Shown one piece after another: positions 27,501 to 61,662 of a stretch of 64,000 nucleotides of DNA (its first letter is position 1; every line of letters begins with the position of its first letter). This stretch comes from Phytoseiulus persimilis (lineage: Eukaryota; Arthropoda; Arachnida; Mesostigmata; Phytoseiidae): the NCBI GenBank assembly GCA_037576195.1, contig CM075101.1, forward strand, positions 13,826,001-13,890,000, in the 5' to 3' direction. A program made the position numbers and the translations under genes. The notes under the pieces are model-generated. The model ran no database searches, had not been told where the DNA came from, and saw only the letters and a program-made list of their open reading frames with translations.

Positions 27501-30500
27501 AAGCTGTCTCGAAGCTAACAGCAGGGTTCCGCTGACCCCAATTTCCGTCATTGTATCAAGTTGAATGAGTGGAAGAACAAAGTGCTCGTCCCGGCTAGTT
27601 GAGGTCGATGATTTTGAAGAATAGGCCGAAACGAGTGGAACACTGCATTCCAGAGTGTTCTCCGTATCCCATGACTAACATGGACGGTCTACGAGATTAC
27701 ACGAGATACAAATTCATTGGACGGAAAGCTGTTCCTTGCTCAGCTGGGGAGATGCTTCGGATACATTCGAATTTCCGGCGGAGAGCGCATTGAGCCACTG
27801 TTTTCAGTGTTATCGCCGAATGAAAAAACCCAGTGCTCATATCGGCTTATGATGGAGCTCTTAAGGAACTTGTGGGGTGATTCTTGGAGCCAGAATTCAT
27901 AGAAGATCATTCGGTTTTGAAGTATGGGCGTATATCACGTCCAGAGCTATGGTTGGTCCCTTTTGATCGCCTAGGACGAGTTTAATCCCCCGTGGCTGTG
28001 GAGCTTGAGCAGGGCGGCCAGAATAGGTCTGTACAGCGGTCGAGTGATAGATAGCGAGGTGAACAGTAGCCGTGACTTCCAGAAAATCTCTTTGCGGAAC
28101 CTGGGCGTGGCCGCAAGAAGTCGTTTGGGCCAAAACTAGAAAACACCACGCTGGCAGTCTCGAGAAACTCAACTCCATTATTCCGGGATCCGATTCATGA
28201 TCTGCATGGATGAAAGTCGTGCGAAAACTGTTTGAGATGATTGCCCGCCAATATGATCGAAGACCTACTCACTGGAATGCTTTAGCTCGAGTATTCCCAC
28301 CACTGTCTGCGCTGTATGATCTTTCGAATGAAACCACCGTATTCAGAAGTCATTGATTCTGTCGGAACGCTATATATTCTGAGGAATGTTATCTCTATCA
28401 TCTCGCCTGGCTCTCCGCATTCTGCTCTCCGCTCCCTGTAATCAGCAAACGGTAATGCTTTCACATGATAATTCAGTAGCGTACTCCCGATAACGAGTTC
28501 CGCACATTGGGATTCCCCTGGGAATCCAACCAGTTTCATCTGAACAAATCACTGCCGACCAGGGTGCAGTCGAGGTTCAATGTCACCTGCTTTCGGGAAC
28601 AACTCTCCTCGCAGTCTGGCAATCAGCTCGAGTCCAGATGGAGTCGTTGGTCTCGCCATCAAGATCTTCTCCATCGTTTCCAGGGGGCAGCTGTCATGGC
28701 GGTAAAGCGAAAACTAATCATGGAACTCATTATGCGTGTTACCAAGGTGGAAGGAGCAGTCGGTTCTCATTAGCGTGATGATATGCGCTACTACCGTTGG
28801 AACATGTCCGTGCGTGGAAGGAGTCAGTCATGTCCAGTGCCTCGTTCCTCTGAGAATTTCTGGCGAATTTCGGCTTCGTGACCACCACCATCCGTCTCTT
28901 GTCGCTCGTATTCATCATATCCGTACCACCACATCGAGAGCTCACAAAACTCCTCAGACAAGAGTTGACGGTTCGCATCCCTGGTTTTTCTCCGATGCGG
29001 GAAATTAAATTCCCAGAATGAGCTCCCCGCCAGAGGCAGCGGTCGCTTCCCCTACAAAATGTACGGAGTTCAGGCATCAACGGTTCTTTTCAAGTTCCGC
29101 CGAGGCCGTTAGAGCGTGACTCCTCCCGTGCGGCGGCGATGCCTCGATCGTGTCAGCTGCGGTGTTCGTGGAGCGGTACCGCGTGGAAAGACAGGAGCAG
29201 GACGGAGGCCTCTATGCATTCTTTCAGATCCGGCGCGCAGTTAGTTCAGAGGGCAGTCAGTCAGCGAGTGAGACAGTCGCCGGAGCAGACTCTGTCTGCA
29301 CATTTGACGTGAGCCAACGCCAGCTGGCAGTAGAGCGAACCAAGCGCCCAAACAAAACTCCACACGGAGGAGCAGTGAGCCATCTCGGACGCACAGCCTG
29401 GTGGGATTGTTGAAAAGTCGACGGAGTGGGCGCCCCAAAGCAAAAAGTTTCCTGTTTTTTGACTCGTTGCCCAGTGCGCTTCCTGTGGTCGTCGTTGTAT
29501 CTGGTGCCGATCGTGTCCGCTTGATGACGCCTGGTAGCGCTTAATTACGAACGAGCACAACTTGACAGTGACACAGAATTGCCGAACGGACCGCCGAGCG
29601 AACGGATACGGACGCTTCATGAACAGAATTCTCGCTCCGCGCGGCAGGGTATTCTTCCTCTTTCCCAGTTTGACCAGCCAGCTGACTGGCTCGCGGCCGG
29701 TTGGCTCCACCACACCTCCTTCTCCGGTCTTCGGAGCCGAATAGTGGCGGGTTCTCGAAACGACCGAATCCATCGTACACATCAGAGCCAGAACGGGCGT
29801 ACGAAGGACCAAGCGACCGGCTGATAGAACCGGCAGGAATCGTGTGCTTCCAAAGTGATTGCCGTTTGCAGCTGCATCGCTCAAATGCCTCATCGAACTG
29901 TCCACGGCGAAGGCAAGGTTGCCATTGTTTGAGGACTGTGTTCGACCCGGACTGCGTGTGTGTATGTGTGCGTCGCCTACGATGGACATGAAAATGTGAA
30001 ATGAACGTCGTGTCATAGCACCATGGAGCGAAGAAGAGCCGTCGCCGTGAGCAACGTGCGCCGATCGAAAAGCTTGCTGTTCGACTTCATGCACATCGGC
30101 GCTCTCATCGAAGAGCCGAAAACTCAGATTTCTCGACGCAGATCGATAAGCTCCTTGGTCCGAGAGAATAAAGACTTCATCAATGACTACGACGATTTCA
30201 CCATCAGCGCCCCCGAAGTGAGTCTAGACTGAAGACGCGTGCTCTGTTCGCTCATTTCGTTGTCACTTCACTGACCTAGGAGTCGAATTCGAAGGAGAGC
30301 CCGCCGCTTCATCTCTGACGATTTTCTTGATCGACAACTGCGGTACTTTACTGTGATCATCTAGGGAGAGGCCGTTAATGGGTTAGTGAACCGAGTGTTT
30401 CAACCCTGGACCGATCGAAGACGAATCAGGATATGTCCGACTGAAACGGATTCGCGGAAAACATGTGATATGGCGGCGAGCACGTGACGTGGCGGCAACG

Positions 30501-33500
30501 AACTATAGAGGCTGATCACTTCGTACTCGAAACCCTCTCCCCGATAGCAGATTCCTTCGATATCGTCACGATATTGCATTCTGCTGCGGTCAGGCGGGCG
30601 GGATTCTCCTGTCCGTCCATGAAGGGCTCTGAGAGAACCAAACTTATGCCCGCGGTTACCACCGACATGATATTCTGGTTTATGTGCGAGACCAATGCAG
30701 TTTGTGGTCATTCGGCATGATCGTTCAGAGAAGAGAACATTTTATGAGACCATTCCGAGTCCAGCCGAACGTGATCCCGGATCGCGTCCAAACTGGACCG
30801 TTACGGATTTACCAATGCGTTTGGACTGTCGCATGCCGAGAACTTTTTCTTTTTAGCAGAGAAGGAGGATCCGAATCAGGCAACACCAGTTTTGCGCGAC
30901 CAGCGATGAGAATAAAAACTTCACGAAAATGCTCCTCCTGGGCAGAACTGTCTCTTGGAGATAGCGGATGAATCCTCGGGGCGATATTCAATCGCGTCGA
31001 CTTTTCCGCTCGAGGAATAGTTCGCGATTCGTGATTCGTGGTAATCGAAGCTAAGGGTTTTTTGGATGAGAAGAGCGCCGTGTTGCTCGTGTCCATAGAA
31101 CGCTGTTTTGAAATCACAAAGATTACACGAGGTCTTCGTGTTTCGAAGAGAAAACTGGATGTTCCCATTTCCTCGTAGATATAAACAGTGAAATCGCAAT
31201 CAGACTACAATAATTTGATCATGAATCGCGGGAACAGCACGAAGGTTACCGATATTCTTTTGAAGAGCTTTCCACAACGCTCTGACCTAAGACCTCGTTC
31301 ATGACCAAGTCGCGACTCACAGATTGAAGCTTCGATCACTCCGACGCGATCGGTTCTAACTTTCCTCCCCACCGGTCATCGCGCCCCGCAGGGCAACGAA
31401 ACGAGTCTCCCGAGCCCGAAACTGTTCCCTCAATAGAGTTTGCAGTCAGCTGACATTGCCGCAATGAATTCCTCGCTCAGCTCGGTTCTCGACCGATCAG
31501 AAGCGGGTTTCAGCTAAGGCCGCTGATTGGATGGCGGCTGGGTTGCCTGATTTCTTGACTGACTGAGTGTTCGTTTGGGACTTTTTTCCGCAGCCGATAT
31601 CTCGACACATCTCCAATGGCTCCGAAGTCGAGAAAATATCTCCGTCTTCGGACGCTTATCTGTTCCTGGGTAACGGTTACACTGCCGTGATCGAGTCACT
31701 GGGTCACTCCGCGTCGCGTTCCACCTCGGGCGGTGCCTTCTATGTCGAATACCTGGGCTCTGTTGTGCCATCGGCTCTTCAATAGCTCTTGCCTTCTGCT
31801 GTAACCAGAAGTCCTCCTCGTCATCAACGGCACCAATATGCATGCACCCAGGTACTCAGTCAGTCACTCAACCATAGAAGGCACTTCAGCTGTGATTCCC
31901 CGAGTGTCGATCCGCAGTGGAATCTCGCCCGGCTGGCAAGCAGCCGCTCTTGAGATTTATGCCACAACAATCCGGAGTCGGGCCCGTCGTGGGAATCGTC
32001 GAATGACCGAAGGGCTTCCGAAACGTCGCGTTCGAATAATCGTTCTATTCAGAGACATTGAACTCGATCCGAATGAATCTCGTCTGAGCTTGGCGCTGTT
32101 TTCGTGGACGAAAGGTCGGTGATTAGCGGCGCAGCGATTCTTCAGCCGCGCCACGCTGAACTGTGCCGTCAGAGGTGAATACATCGAAAACATGTACCCG
32201 ATGCGTGTTAGTATTCTGGGTCGGTTGATGACCTTTCGCTTGTTTTAGGCGATTGCGAAGCGGGCGGCATGCGGTTTCTATCGAACTTTTTCCCCCTTGC
32301 ATCTGGTTGCTCGTACGAGAACGCCTCTAACGGCGAATGTTTTCGTTTTCCGTGTGAAACCTCCCGAACGACGCGTCAGAAGACGAACTTTCCAAATACA
32401 GAAAGGCGCATACAACTCGCGCGACCGGAGCAATCAGTCATCGAGCAGAAGCGGTCGTCGGTCATGGTAGCCATGATCAATAAAAACCAACAACAACTCC
32501 GAAAGCAATCACAGGGCATCAACGACAGAAGCCGGACAGAGAGCTAGTTACGGCTTCTGATGCTCTTAATTCGCTTTGCAGAACCTGGACAAATGGAAAT
32601 CGGCGCGCCGTCAGCGGGTCCCCGAAAGACTTCTGAGCCGGGCCGAGGAAGCGAAGAAACTGCTCGAAGAAGAAGAGCAGAGACAAATTCGAAAAGTGAA
32701 GACTTTTTCCGAGATGATGCAGCAACGGCAGCATCGCCAACAGAGCCGCTACAGTCTTAATTTCTACCAGGATATGGACGAAAAGTGAGTCGCTCGACCA
32801 GGATCCCGAGAGTTTGGTCCGGCACCCACTGGTCTGGAAGAGGTTCTCGGCGTACGGCTCCACCCACCCACCCACTTACTTTATGTCTGATTCCAGTTTC
32901 GACGAAGAGAACAAGGAGAACGACGCGCAGCGAACCGCTCGTTTGACAACGGCAGATTCTGTCGACAGTCAGTCCGAGGGTAAATCCTCGGACGGAGCTT
33001 CTTCCGAAGAGCGCTTGACCGAGAGCGAATCGCACGGCTCGGAAGAGCGCTTGGCTTCGCCAGTTGAAGTTTGGACGGCGGATTCCGGCGTGGACTCGTT
33101 CAGCGGCAGCAACCAGATCGAGCTCGCTATAACGACGAGCACTGACCTTCTGAAGGAGTTCAGTTCGCCCTCAGAATGTCAGCCGATCCCTCGAGACGAG
33201 CCCTCGAACCCGAACGAAGTTATCATCCGGCTTTCAATCAATCCATCGTCCGACATTTTTGGTTTCACTCTCATGCAAGACGGCCAGAAAGTCGTTGTGG
33301 AATCCGTTGATGAAGGTAACAGCTTTGCCCGAAGCCACGGGGTGGAAAGCACCGAGAGTCTTCCGCTTTTCGAAACTTGTGCTCGCCGCGAGCACCACCG
33401 GCAGCCGCCATCTTGGTCTCCGTCTCCAGAGAGACTTATACAGCGATTAGGAACGTGCCGGATATCCAATCGACTAATTCTCCTTTTCAGATGGAGTCGC

Positions 33501-36500
33501 AGACCTCGCCGGACTCAAGAAGCATGACGAAATCATCTCGTTGAACGGGGTGCTAGCAGACTCGCCCGGCAGCGTTCCATCGTCGATGGACCTGGCACTA
33601 ATGACGGGGCAGTTGGAGATGGTGATATACCGGGCGGACGCTTCTGGCAGAAACGCGGACGCAGAGGAAGCAGAGCGCATGAGCGAATTTCAGAGGAAAC
33701 TCGCGAGGTTCTCGGGTGACGTCGATGTCGGTACGATAGGCGACAGATCGGCTGCGAATGAAGTGATCATCGAACCGAAACTTGTCGAGCGGCGAAAATC
33801 GCAGCTCTTCATCCAAGCGCTTCAAATGGAGCAGCAGGAGAACGAGGAGAAAGAGAAGCTCCAGGACCTTGTGCCCGTCGAGGATCAACTCGTTCTGAAA
33901 CGGAAAAACTCTCTCTCGAAGTCGATGAACGAGAATCGGTACGAGACGGCTGATAAGAAAGCTCCTCTCGACGAGATCGAGCCCCAGATCATCGAACGGA
34001 AGAAGGCGGAATTCATTCGTCAGGCCAGCATCGACAACATCACGAGAAGCGAGCTCAGAGCCGAGATCGCGGTGGAGCCGCACATCGTTCTCCAGAGGAA
34101 GGCGTCCATCGAGAACTGCGCACAACGTCAGGAGGACGTCCGTGTCCTCGACTTGCAACCTTCTGTGCCGGTGGCTCAGCTGAAGGCCTCGATAGAAAGC
34201 AGTGGCAACAGCTCCGAGCCGAACAAACCAAAGACACCGTCTGTTGACATCGAGCTGACCATCGAAGAGCGAAAGGCCAGTTTCTTCGAACACTCGGGCA
34301 AAGACGTCGAGAAAACGACTGTCGATGTCCCGATCGAGCCGAAGCTCATCGAACAGAGGAAAGCCAGTTTCATCGAAAACCGAAACGACAGCTCGCAGAA
34401 AGCATCGAAAGCTCATCTCGAGCTGGACATCCAGCCCAGGCTGCTCGAGCAGCGCAAGGCGGATTTCTTGGAGAACGCGGCGAAGACCGCGGTGAAAACT
34501 CCGCAAGACGAAGCGATCTGTGTTGAGAAATACCGGCTCCCCCTGCAGAATAGCTCCGGAGCTCCATTGGCCCGCTCTGACTCGGGCCGCAAGGTGGAAC
34601 TCATCGTGAACAACATGCAGTCCAAGCCAAAGTGTGAGGTGCCCATCGAACCCGACCTCATCCGAAAGCGCAAAGAAGCTCTCTTCTGTTCGTCCTCGAT
34701 GACGAACGAAATCGAGAGGCGTCGCGTTAAGTTGGCCAACATTGAAGCTGAAGTTTACGGAGAAATCCGGGGTTTCGACCCGTCCCCTCCCGCCTCGGTT
34801 GTTGAAGAACTCTCCGCGGACCGGAAACCGCCAAAGGCCACGCAAGTCGATATCGGTCAGTCGGCGATGTCCCCGGCGGGCTGCTCTGAGACGAGCGAAG
34901 ACTCCCGCAGCCTGTCCAGCTCGACAACGACGGTCACTGAGATCCGTCGAGAGGTGGGAAACATCATGCTGTCGTCCGTTGCCTCAGGTTCTCTGTTCTC
35001 GCCGGTCTCGGACAGGAACGAGTCACCGGCTCATCTCTCTGACGTCTCGCCCGAAGAGATTTGCAGTCCGCGCTCGAAGAGTTCGCTCTTCGAATCCGCG
35101 CGAGATGAGCCGCTCGACTACGGCTTCCTGAAACAGCTCACTCCAGCGGGCGCCGTGCCCGAACGGAGAGACCTCTCGGACATCGTTCTGGATTCCCCCA
35201 CAAGCGAGGGGGAGCAAAACGTGCGGAGCACATTGGTCGCCGACCGGAACCGAACCTGTGTCAAAGACGCGGGTCATACGCCTTGGGTCAGGGAGAACTC
35301 AAGGAGAGACGAGCTGCCCGCGCGCCAGCAAGTTCCCGTGACATCGAAGAGCTTGGAGCCGAGGCCAAACCAGTTGAATTTCATGAGACAAGAAGATGAT
35401 TCCCAGAAATGTGAGGTAAGTTTCCAACCACTACCGGTAGAAGAACTGATCGGCGAACGCTGCTCCGTATATTGAAACTGTCCAATCAAACACCGGAGTG
35501 TTGACGCATGGCGTGTTTCCATTTCAAGGTTGTCAACTCGAAGTCAACTCCGCAAACACAGCATCCCGGGCCGGCTCCGACGAGGATTTCTATCGATGTG
35601 GAGAACAATGCATACGAAAACCACGAGGTGGGCGCCGGGGAACGCATGAATCAAGTCCCACCAATGTACGACATTTACGATCAGCTGCCTGGTCAGCCAC
35701 CCAGAGGTCATAAGAAAGGAGTCCCTCCGCCGCCGCCGAGCGGAGTTGTCCCGTATGGGGAGGAACTTTATGAGAACGCTCCGCAGTTCAAAACTCAACA
35801 ATACCATCAGGGAGGTCTCCAACCCACGTGGAAAGAGCCGATGAATCCGAGATCCGTGGGATCGACTCATGTACAACAAGCCACAAATGTTCAAACCAGT
35901 CACCACACACAACCGCCTAGCCATACGAGAGACGATGATCTCTACGGAGAGCTCCGCAAGACGGCGTCTGACTCCATTAATCAGGTCGAAGTCAGAAAAC
36001 GAGAGAACCAGATCCGAAGGCAGGAGAGGAAAAGTTATCACGAAGGGATCGTCAACTATCCCGCGTACGATTATCTTGGTCAGCCGAATTTGTATAATTG
36101 CCCAGAAGACATTTATGAAAATACTCGGAAGTACGCTTCCAAGTCTTGCGAGGATGTCTCTGACGTCAACTCCCAGTATCAAGGCAGAACTATGTCACAG
36201 TTCATGCCGAGCAAGGATCTGAGTGTCGGGAGACCCGGATACGGCCACGACATCTACGAGAATGTGGAAGCCTACGCTAAAAACACAGACTACCGGAATA
36301 ACCTTCACAAGCCTTCGGTGACCGAAGACTTCTACGAAGTCCCTCGGCGATCGGAGCAAAGTAAAGTCAAATTCCCTGTGAGCCAGTCGTCTGGCCACGA
36401 TCAGATGCAGAGGTACGTTTTCCAATCAGCGATACCCACCTCATCACGGCTTTTCTTTGTCAGAGTTCGTTCTCGCGGTCAGATTCCGAACTCAGAGGTC

Positions 36501-37803
36501 ACATTCTCGTAGTTTCGGACAGGAAGTTCTCTCCCATCATCCTCACAAGTTCATTCAATCGCAGGTCTCGTAGTCAGCCGTACGTGGGTACCCCCGTAGG
36601 GAGTTCCGACCCGAAACTTAGACCGCAGAGGAGTAGCGCGGAGAACCTCGATGAGCCCCGACCGCTCACCGCGGAAATTGGAGCCAAGCGGAAACCTGCT
36701 CTGACGAATAAGTGAGTTCAAGACTTTGCCCTATCGGAATATGATTCGGAATGGGAGCGATTCGCGATCGACTAGCTCCGCGGAATCGTTGATGACCGAT
36801 AGTCGCTCCCGGGAGGGCCGAGATGAAGAGAGAGGCGACGAGACACGAAAGAGTCGTGGGAGAACAATATTCAAAATGTTTAACGATCGGACAGGGGGCA
36901 GTCTCGTGTCTGATCCCGCAATGCCCGCTCATCACTGCTCCGCTTATTTCGCCAAGAAGCGACACAGGTCGCAAAGGTTGTGAACGCTGTTGTTGTCCGG
37001 CGTGAAACTGTTCAGGTCGGTGTGATGAGACCTCTAAAGCTGTTTCTCTTTCAGGCCTTTCAACGCTAATCATTGGCTGATACAGGAAGCTGAAATGCGA
37101 AGGCAGCTCGAAGCGAACATCTACGCTTCTGCCGTTCCCCAAATCCAGTCTGGAGGCAACGCTGGTCATTGTGGGACGGCCCCGTCGATTCCCGCCTCAC
37201 AAGCAAACATAACGAATGTGTCCCTGAATGTGAGCGAAGCGTCTCCTCAGGTACCTCCAATGAGGAAAACAGTACCGCCCAACACGGCGCCATTCCAAGG
37301 CAATCAGTCGGGACAGCCTCTCGCCATCTCCGGAAAGTAAGTAACGAAGCCTCCCTGTCGCCGCGCCTTGTTTCGGTCTAGAACCGAAGAGGCTCCATCT
37401 TTTTTCGATTGTTCATGTATCTCTCTAACTCCCTTTTAAGGAAACGATGTTCGCTCTGCACTTCCGAACTTGGTCGGGGGGCGGCCATGGTTATCGAAAG
37501 TCTCCAATTGCATTTTCACTTGGACTGCTTCCGCTGCTGTGTTTGCAAGCAACGACTGGGAAACGGAACATGTGGAACTGACGTCCGCGTGCGCAATTCC
37601 AAGTTGCATTGTCAGAATTGTTACTCGAACGACGAGGGTAAGCATTCATCTTCACTCGACCAGGATGCAGGCCTGGATTTCGCTCGCATATGGAGCGAGG
37701 CTAGATTTCCGATATCTCCGCCTCTTCAACATCGAGTTCGAGTTGGAGCTCACGGGGGTATTCCTTGATTCTTACAGCGGGCGTGAAGCTCAGCCGCGTG
37801 TGA
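24551..37803 (+). CDS. Smallish (Smash)/LMO7-LIMCH1 homologue: PDZ-LIM junctional protein
   Basis: Eleven phase-matched exons: 24551-24786 (ATG 24652), 25480-25692, 26877-26957, 32582-32784, 32897-33315, 33491-35415, 35529-36412, 36565-36711, 37055-37336, 37441-37637 and 37778-37803, giving 1503 residues. Stops lie in frame upstream of the ATG. Order: acidic N-terminus; the LMO7/LIMCH1-type EEEWQA-NLDKWKS motif (about 138-150) with a charged helix; PDZ (about 318-400, GLGF loop as FGF), split by an intron; repeats of an EPxLIExRKA unit (440-751); a tyrosine-motif segment (about 1015-1290); the family motif HWLIQEAEMRRQ (1342-1354); and LIM (1433-1490, ligands C1433 C1436 H1456 C1459 C1462 C1465 C1487 C1490). 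The protein ends 13 residues after the LIM domain. Drosophila Smash acts at adherens junctions with Bazooka, Canoe and Src42A; a similar cortical role is inferred here. Confidence 0.9.
29251..30022 (+). promoter_or_regulatory. Candidate internal promoter and 5' UTR of the smash gene
   Basis: This segment precedes the start codon at 30023, which is in very strong context (CACCATGG). Repeated TCAG initiator-like words lie at 29257-29264, and AGACT, which fits the DPE consensus, begins 29 bases from the first A, one base off the usual spacing. This supports a second transcription start only weakly; the stronger evidence is the phase-compatible coding exon that follows. Confidence 0.35.
30023..30217 (+). 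CDS. Alternative first coding exon of the smash gene
   Basis: This is 65 codons from a strong-context ATG to a consensus donor (GAA|GTGAGT) in phase 0, exactly the phase needed to join the exon at 32582. The peptide is basic at the start (MERRRAVAVSNVRRSKSL) and contains an RRRSISS stretch that could be a basophilic kinase site. Since the exon at 26957 also joins 32582 in phase 0 and completes the conserved WQA-NLDKWKS motif, this exon probably starts a shorter isoform that replaces the first 143 residues. It could also be a skipped internal exon. No homologue is recognised. Confidence 0.55.
31594..31669 (+). other. Possible extra exon inside smash intron 3
   Basis: The segment follows a strong acceptor (CTTTTTTCCGCAG) and reads PISRHISNGSEVEKISPSSD and onward in phase 0. 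The first donor (CTGG|GTAACG) leaves in phase 1, which does not fit the next known exon. The opposite strand is also open here. Treat it as a candidate only. Confidence 0.2.
33757..34690 (+). repeat. Degenerate protein repeat array in the smash homologue
   Basis: About nine copies of a roughly 16-residue motif lie within one exon. Examples are VIIEPKLVERRKSQLF, EIEPQIIERKKAEF, VDIELTIEERKASFFE, VPIEPKLIEQRKASFIE, LDIQPRLLEQRKADFLE and VPIEPDLIRKRKEALF. The shared core is hydrophobic-x-[IV]-[EQ]-P-x-[LI]-[IVL]-x-x-R-K-x-x-[FI]. Copies are about 25-37 residues apart, with one longer gap that may hold a decayed copy. Spacers are polar and low in order-promoting residues. The DNA is diverged between copies, so the repeat is old and kept at protein level. 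Confidence 0.8.
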
Positions 37804-60420: not shown

Positions 60421-61662
60421 TATTACCCGCGTCGTTTTCAATAATTTTCTGGAGACTCGTGCGAGGACGCATCGTTCCGAGGAGCTGAATGAAAAAAAAT
60501 TCTGTCACGTTCTGTGAAGTTCAGGGGCAGAGTATTGAAGTTTTTCCGAGTGGGTGTCTCGACTAATTGATCGGTCCAAAACAGCAACCGGAGATCGCAG
60601 GCGGGAGGAAACGCCTTCCTCGTGGCACTTGGCCACCACGAGCCGGACTTTGTTCGACACCCTCGTGAAAGTGTTCACTTCAGTTTCGTCCAACATCCTT
60701 CCCGTCCACCCACCTGAGTCTTCCATTCATTCGCTATCGCACCCGGCGCTTCGTGTGCCGAACAATTCCTCAGTGTCGTGCAGTTCAAAGTGAGCCAGAT
60801 CGAGAGCGACTTTGAGCACGCAGCGAAATCTCTTGGAGAAAGCACGCTGTACAAAAGGAAGCGAGGAAGGACGAATGACCGCGCGGTGAACGACCGTGCA
60901 CAGTGTGCCTGTATTGAAAATGAACATTCACGGCCCACGAGCCGCGACTCGGCTCACGGCGAGAGGCGTCCATACAGTCTGCTCTGATTCAGTGCGATGA
61001 ACAGTTTCCGTGGAACCTGACGATTTCGTTCGATTAAAACGACGAATCAGACGAAACCACAGTTGTTTTGGGACGAAAAACAGCAGCGGCCATCGTCGTG
61101 ATGGTTGTCAGTCGTTCGAGTCATCCACGAATCGTTCTTTTCTGTTGAGATTCCAGCAGAGAAGACGTAAAGAGGGCTCGATTTGCGGATGGCATGATTG
61201 GAGCGGATTCGAGCCCTGTTCGACCGTGGCGACGTTTGCGTGTCTGCGTGACGTTCGTGTATCCGAACGAGACCGGCTAAACGATACGAATTTCAGATGG
61301 CGACGGTGGCGGCGTCGTGTCTGTACATTATGAAGAATTTTACCACTTATTATCTTATGTGGCTCAACCAAGCGCTTTCTGATAAAAACATCTGATGTTA
61401 CATCTCTGTTATCAGTTTCGTCTTCTCCTCGGCCGAGCGTTGCTGTGCCGAATGCCTGTCCCGGTGGTTGCCGACCGACCAGTCCGTTGGACGTTCGTCT
61501 GTCATTCCGACGCGCAGACGAGCTGACTGGATAAATGGAATGCCTCTGTAGATGCGGTACAGAACTGTCGCGTTGACTCTTCGATGGGGTAGCCGTGGTC
61601 ACGGGAGCTGCGTTCGGCTACCTTTCGCTCTCGCCGTCACGTGGCGGCTGCCGTGACCGGTG
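60421..61662. other. Intergenic region without a supportable gene
   Basis: Open frames below 170 codons occur on both strands, such as minus 61602-61108. No motifs and no matched exon chain were found. Confidence 0.5.

Follow-up and report, generated by a model that had tools for sequence, protein, structure and literature searches.

A short motif array with a retained core in the PDZ-LIM linker of an LMO7/Smash-type gene from the mite Phytoseiulus persimilis

Proteins of the LMO7/LIMCH1/Smallish class are recognized by a DUF4757-like segment, a PDZ domain, a long linker and a single LIM domain, and vertebrate LMO7 and LIMCH1 are further characterized by a CH domain. The class does not require CH, since PMC3305314 reports members without it; according to the same source, LIMCH1 has no PDZ domain and its Drosophila LMO7 model has neither PDZ nor CH. 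PMC8657913 describes long disordered regions surrounding the PDZ and LIM domains of human LMO7 and does not use the word "repeat" in its main text.

The functions assigned to these proteins center on the junctional cytoskeleton. Mammalian Lmo7 is described as acting on F-actin (PMC3305314), and LMO7 as possibly regulating apical myosin (PMC10081768). Fly Smallish is reported to be an LMO7 homologue at the zonula adherens that regulates actomyosin contractility and binds PAR polarity complex proteins and Canoe/afadin (PMC10081768), and to be needed for Bazooka localization (PMC6175575). Afadin proximity proteomics includes LMO7, with direct contact and its site given as unknown (PMC11810119).

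Other systems also bear on the locus described here. Linkers of the p130Cas/IRS type are multisite arrays of Tyr motifs that are read by SH2 domains, and nebulin and Xin carry actin-binding repeats, one unit per subunit. In Miranda, a basic-hydrophobic membrane motif is described as being released by aPKC at S96 (PMC5783611).

We analyzed a window of 64,000 nucleotides from P. persimilis, whose own coordinates are used throughout, and found in it an LMO7/Smash-type gene with the spliced order partial DUF4757, PDZ, motif array, tyrosine-rich exon, LIM and C-terminal -SRV (Table 1). The splice model, based on GT/AG signals and frame, begins at the DUF4757-like exon and joins 8 exons into 1,393 residues with one stop, at the end; all copies of the array lie in one frame of a 665-codon ORF (33478-35475).

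The individual domains differ in how clearly they could be assigned. The DUF4757 match covers profile positions 116-166 of 167 and drops to 23.0 bits once the next exon is joined. A family search of the whole genome for DUF4757 gave no match, with the control likewise silent, and the gene's own DUF4757-like exon, used as a query at E up to 1, revealed no second such exon in its own genome. Pfam picked up the PDZ domain only in the spliced sequence; human LMO7 PDZ (2eaq, E 0.0036) is among its 137 PDB matches, without being the top one. The LIM domain is single and close to the C-terminus of the model. The best solved LIM by sequence is that of CRP1 (E 4.5e-07), and its five PDB matches include no LMO7 LIM. 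None of the 50 CH matches listed in the genome falls in the window, in an exon-by-exon search of the best candidates that a finely split CH, or one located beyond the window, could escape. The designation of the gene as a smash homologue in the original prediction is therefore reasonable, given PDZ and LIM domains over their Pfam cut-offs and the -SRV end, yet unproved, with DUF4757 just under its cut-off and no CH match in the window. In contrast to the Drosophila LMO7 model reported in PMC3305314, the mite protein has a PDZ domain.

Two further observations concern the ends of the gene. By the definition of the class, the C-terminal -KLSRV appears to fit a class I PDZ-binding motif; Smash is said to end in a C-terminal PDZ-binding motif. 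Given this end, the mite protein may bear both a PDZ domain and a PDZ ligand. Upstream, positions 30023-30220, in an ORF at 30005-30232, read ERRRAVAVSNVRRSKSLL...SRRRSISSLV and might represent an alternative first exon that adds more basic-Ser sites.

Table 1. Features of the LMO7/Smash-type gene and its motif array (window coordinates)
Feature	Core sequence	Positions	Strand	Basis or remark
Model exons		32582-32784, 32897-33315, 33491-35415, 35529-36412, 36466-36711, 37055-37336, 37441-37637, 37778-37803	+	GT/AG and frame
C-terminal part of DUF4757-like segment		32582..32784	+	Pfam E 1.4e-05, 25.9 bits, cut-off 27
PDZ domain, intron 33316-33490 inside		33219..33633	+	Pfam PDZ 2.7e-06, 28.1 bits, cut-off 23.2
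Large exon: PDZ second half and array		33491..35415	+	1,925 bases, GT/AG and frame
Core copy 1	IEPKLVERRKSQL	33769..33807	+	R-R-K-S site
Core copy 2	VEDQLVLKRKNSL	33877..33915	+	R-K-N-S site
Core copy 3	IEPQIIERKKAEF	33976..34014	+	E at Ser position
Core copy 4	VEPHIVLQRKASI	34072..34110	+	R-K-A-S site
Probable core copy 5	LQPSVPVAQLKASI	34153..34194	+	one residue longer; non-significant alone, placed by register
Core copy 6	IELTIEERKASF	34249..34284	+	one residue shorter; R-K-A-S site
Core copy 7	IEPKLIEQRKASF	34333..34371	+	top profile score; R-K-A-S site
Core copy 8	IQPRLLEQRKADF	34429..34467	+	D at Ser position
Core copy 9	IEPDLIRKRKEAL	34645..34683	+	A at Ser position; 72-residue gap before
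Next exon, second motif array		35529..36412	+	six [DE][ILF]Y[EDG] sites, three within its four YEN; site counts vs shuffles
LIM domain		37448..37630	+	Pfam LIM 7.8e-09, 36.1 bits, cut-off 22.9
Last exon, C-terminus -KLSRV then stop		37778..37803	+	splice model

The array consists of nine cores that can be aligned on an invariant Lys, with a consensus of roughly [IV]EPx[LI][IV]ExRKASF from I/V at -9 to F/I/L at +3. Seven cores align without gaps, copy 6 by a one-residue deletion and copy 5 by a one-residue insertion. The Lys-to-Lys spacings are 36, 33, 32, 28, 30, 29, 32 and 72 residues, so that the initial figures, about nine copies mostly 25-37 residues apart, are correct, with 72 as the last gap. 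This gap between copies 8 and 9 (34468-34644) corresponds to about two units, holds no recognizable copy and seems to mark a lost or decayed unit.

The existence of the array, as first proposed, is borne out by self-similarity far above that of shuffles and of the rest of the same protein. The exon contains 46 window pairs at BLOSUM62 of at least 40 (mean 0.02 and maximum 3 in 300 local shuffles); the array alone contains 43, where 100 shuffles gave at most 1, and none occurs in any of the four remaining parts of the model. When the bar was lowered to 25, the Tyr-rich exon also topped its 100 shuffles (30 pairs vs at most 23), on account of the second array that it carries. In an ungapped search with a profile from which the scored copy was held out, copies 1, 2, 3, 4, 7 and 8 beat all 100 shuffles, copy 9 beat 98, copy 6 beat 82 and copy 5 none. 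With one 1-residue gap permitted, copy 6 scored 14.7, above the maximum of 200 shuffles (11.1), and copy 5 scored 6.9, under the 95% level of 8.4. We therefore count eight firm copies and one probable copy, as copy 6 passes with a gap and copy 5 fails and rests on its register. At the DNA level, Tandem Repeats Finder reported only two short 9-base rows in 33400-36500 and no array at the period of the unit. A 461-codon open frame on the minus strand (33598-34983) lies opposite the array; its coordinates put it in the same codon register as the sense frame, so that it requires no more than a lack of TTA, CTA and TCA codons there, and it is not evidence for a gene.

The cores also carry candidate basophilic Ser sites. 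Every one of the five R[RK]x[ST] sites in the exon is located in a core (copies 1, 2, 4, 6 and 7; mean 1.00 in shuffles of the exon, p 0.003), and the whole model has only six. Likewise, S/T is found at +3 of R[RK] pairs in 5 of 10 cases in cores and 0 of 8 outside them in the exon (one-sided Fisher about 0.03). The residues at the Ser position of copies 1 to 9 are Q, S, E, S, S, S, S, D and A, with the Ser of copy 1 one residue earlier; At +2, five of nine copies thus have Ser and another two have an acidic residue, E or D (binomial 0.0014, the column having been chosen post hoc). Judged by the PKA/PKC-type consensus, the core copies resemble basophilic-kinase sites with two acidic replacements.

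It is possible, if doubtful, that the conserved cores mainly form a multisite array of kinase substrates (PKA/PKC/aPKC-type, R-K-x-S-hydrophobic), in which phosphosites would recruit a 14-3-3-like reader or add charge stepwise and I-E-P-x-L-I would be the docking half for the kinase. Both the in-core sites and the Ser column speak for it, and the binding of PAR complex proteins reported for fly Smallish (PMC10081768) might place aPKC within reach. However, copies 3, 5, 8 and 9 do not fit the R[RK]x[ST] pattern, and the looser R..[ST] sites of the ORF are less concentrated, with just 6 of 15 in cores. The conserved I, P, L and I belong to no kinase consensus known to us. In addition, three of the nine copies (3, 8 and 9) retain the core without Ser; phosphorylation cannot explain the whole core, which must do more than be phosphorylated, and the simplest proposal for this further role would be docking.

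The spacing of the copies is also informative. When the final gap of 72 is excluded, the other seven have a coefficient of variation of 0.08, an evenness reached by none of the 2,595 random placements that were accepted under a minimum gap of 15. Such regularity across copies 1 to 8 favours their descent by tandem duplication over an independent origin. The array further shares with nebulin and Xin repeats a short conserved core, a period of about 30 residues and a place in a cytoskeletal protein. Attachment of the units to the successive subunits of a regular polymer, for example F-actin or a myosin bundle, at one unit per subunit in nebulin or Xin fashion, would account for the 28-36-residue spacing of the first eight copies and agree with the actin and myosin roles of LMO7 cited above, but we regard it as unlikely. 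Tandem duplication alone also yields even spacing, and the 72-residue gap interrupts the period. The motif is unlike those of nebulin and Xin, neither of which to our knowledge resembles the array core, and Pfam scans at E up to 1 with the array or its nine members matched neither family.

Comparison of the copies with one another provides information on their age and on selection. Across the seven ungapped copies, core pS is 0.672, close to the 0.692 (sd 0.043) of 300 random codon sets drawn from the exon, whereas core pN is 0.356 against 0.731 (sd 0.021, lowest 0.662), although selection of copies by core likeness biases pN and the per-column values towards conservation and the held-out test counters this bias for seven copies only. 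The 3' flank (13 codons) has a pN of 0.711, inside the random range, and the 5' flank (13 codons) has 0.648, under all 300 random sets. Weak conservation thus extends upstream of the core; it includes a Lys at -16, seven residues ahead of the core, which six of nine units retain, and hints that the unit is longer than the core. Identical core residues use the same codon in 57 of 123 pairs, near the 53.0 expected from exon codon usage (62 of 135 and 58.0 over 17 codons), which points to no recent copying, with nothing to suggest a constraint at the DNA or RNA level. With synonymous sites at random level and low core pN, the duplications are remembered by the core residues and not by synonymous sites. 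These data fit an old tandem duplication of a unit of about 32 residues with selection on its core. The selection suggested from the outset is thus supported inside the gene, where the flanks are far less conserved than the core; the expected contrast between core and spacers, compared here on paralogous copies, holds for the near-random 3' flank but is not clean at the partly conserved 5' flank.

The same data bear on a functionless relic of tandem duplication that is decaying, in which core retention would be an appearance created by picking similar copies. The indels in copies 5 and 6, the unit apparently missing in the 72-residue gap and the residual likeness of the 5' flank are in line with decay. 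Neutrality, however, would raise pN and pS together, whereas core pN is half of random and synonymous sites are at random level, and the held-out profile test still picks out seven copies. This reading is already disfavoured, and we consider it improbable. Membrane binding by a series of basic-hydrophobic motifs in the linker, which aPKC would release as at Miranda S96 (PMC5783611), is very improbable. The cores resemble Miranda/Numb motifs in having a basic pair, hydrophobic neighbours and, in many cases, a Ser that a PAR-complex kinase could reach, but they differ in being repeated and in being near neutral or acidic overall (net charge of 18-residue core stretches just -3 to +2, negative in 4 of 9), and so fall short of a strong positive charge.

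Searches for the motif elsewhere were carried out at several levels. Three protein queries against the animal's own genome (one at E up to 0.001, the others at E up to 10) gave no convincing array outside this exon among the best candidates scored; the sole other match was weak (E 0.79) and had two internal stops. Across six frames of the window, the nine-copy profile at a score of at least 10 recovered its own nine members, with scores from 18.4 to 34.9, and a single further site on the plus strand at 60936 (HEPRLGSRREASI, score 10.7), which is probably due to chance. No relative was found in viral and prokaryotic contigs, collections that contain no animals and are hence silent on them. No Pfam model exceeded its cut-off on the array or its nine members. 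The closest, hNIFK/Ki67-FHA (PF12196), scored 18.4 against a 25-bit cut-off on the array (E 0.0015) and matched one of the nine copies alone (E 0.2), and was rejected as chance. In PDB, the nine-copy profile matched six weak sequences (best E 0.15, the 80-kDa subunit of DNA helicase II), and neither the whole array nor copy 1 alone gave a match. An amphipathic-helix dock is likewise unsupported: at 100 degrees, the cores (with the slice for copy 5 off register by one) and the array as a whole have the same mean helical moment, 0.24.

The original prediction held that no such array had been described for LMO7/LIMCH1/Smash proteins, and the open-licence literature searched contains no description of one, in agreement with the lack of any mention for the class in the partial texts cited above. 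No title or abstract in that literature concerns such an array.

As the best reading of the sequence, to which we assign a probability of roughly one half, we propose a tandem-duplicated array with a retained core that would act as a multivalent linear-motif scaffold with a possible phospho-switch. Tandem duplication of an ancestral unit of about 32 residues (about 96 bases) in the PDZ-LIM linker would have produced some nine or ten units. Since then, synonymous positions would have become saturated and spacers drifted, with purifying selection presumably keeping a core of about 13 residues, [IV]-E-P-x-L-[IV]-E-[QRK]-R-K-A-S-[FIL]. Each core may be a linear motif to which one common partner docks at the junctional cortex, with I..P.LI as a hydrophobic anchor next to the basic RK, and the array would bind by avidity. 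A basophilic kinase (PKA-, PKC- or aPKC-type) could phosphorylate the Ser and so tune the number of active sites, and the E and D copies might mimic the phosphorylated state. This proposal is supported by the self-similarity, the even spacing, the contrast of pS and pN, the in-core R[RK]x[ST] sites and the disordered surroundings described for human LMO7. The multivalent docking site for one partner that was suggested initially is a plausible candidate function.

The docking array proposed here also has a parallel in p130Cas/IRS-type linkers, in which one short motif is likewise repeated along a linker outside folded domains, giving avidity. Their motifs are Tyr motifs for SH2 domains, whereas the array has R-K-x-S and a Tyr array is located in the next exon. 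That exon has six [DE][ILF]Y[EDG] sites (mean 0.08, maximum 2 in 5,000 shuffles), with Tyr codons at 35676, 35769, 35943, 36114, 36255 and 36333, and four YEN (mean 0.09, maximum 2 in 5,000 shuffles). Judged by consensus, these resemble Src-family sites accompanied by YxN, the Grb2-type SH2 consensus. A still more tentative and rather doubtful extension is that the array is a lineage-wide, phospho-tunable docking ladder, a new linear-motif family, placed beside a Src-type tyrosine ladder; the protein would then be an adherens-junction scaffold with two inputs, a Ser/Thr polarity kinase and the Tyr kinase Src, each acting on the stretch that separates PDZ from LIM.

LMO7/Smash proteins are otherwise hard to dissect, and the retained-core repeat provides a short, testable peptide in their linker. 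Should the cores all bind one partner, avidity would depend on copy number, which lends itself to comparison across lineages.
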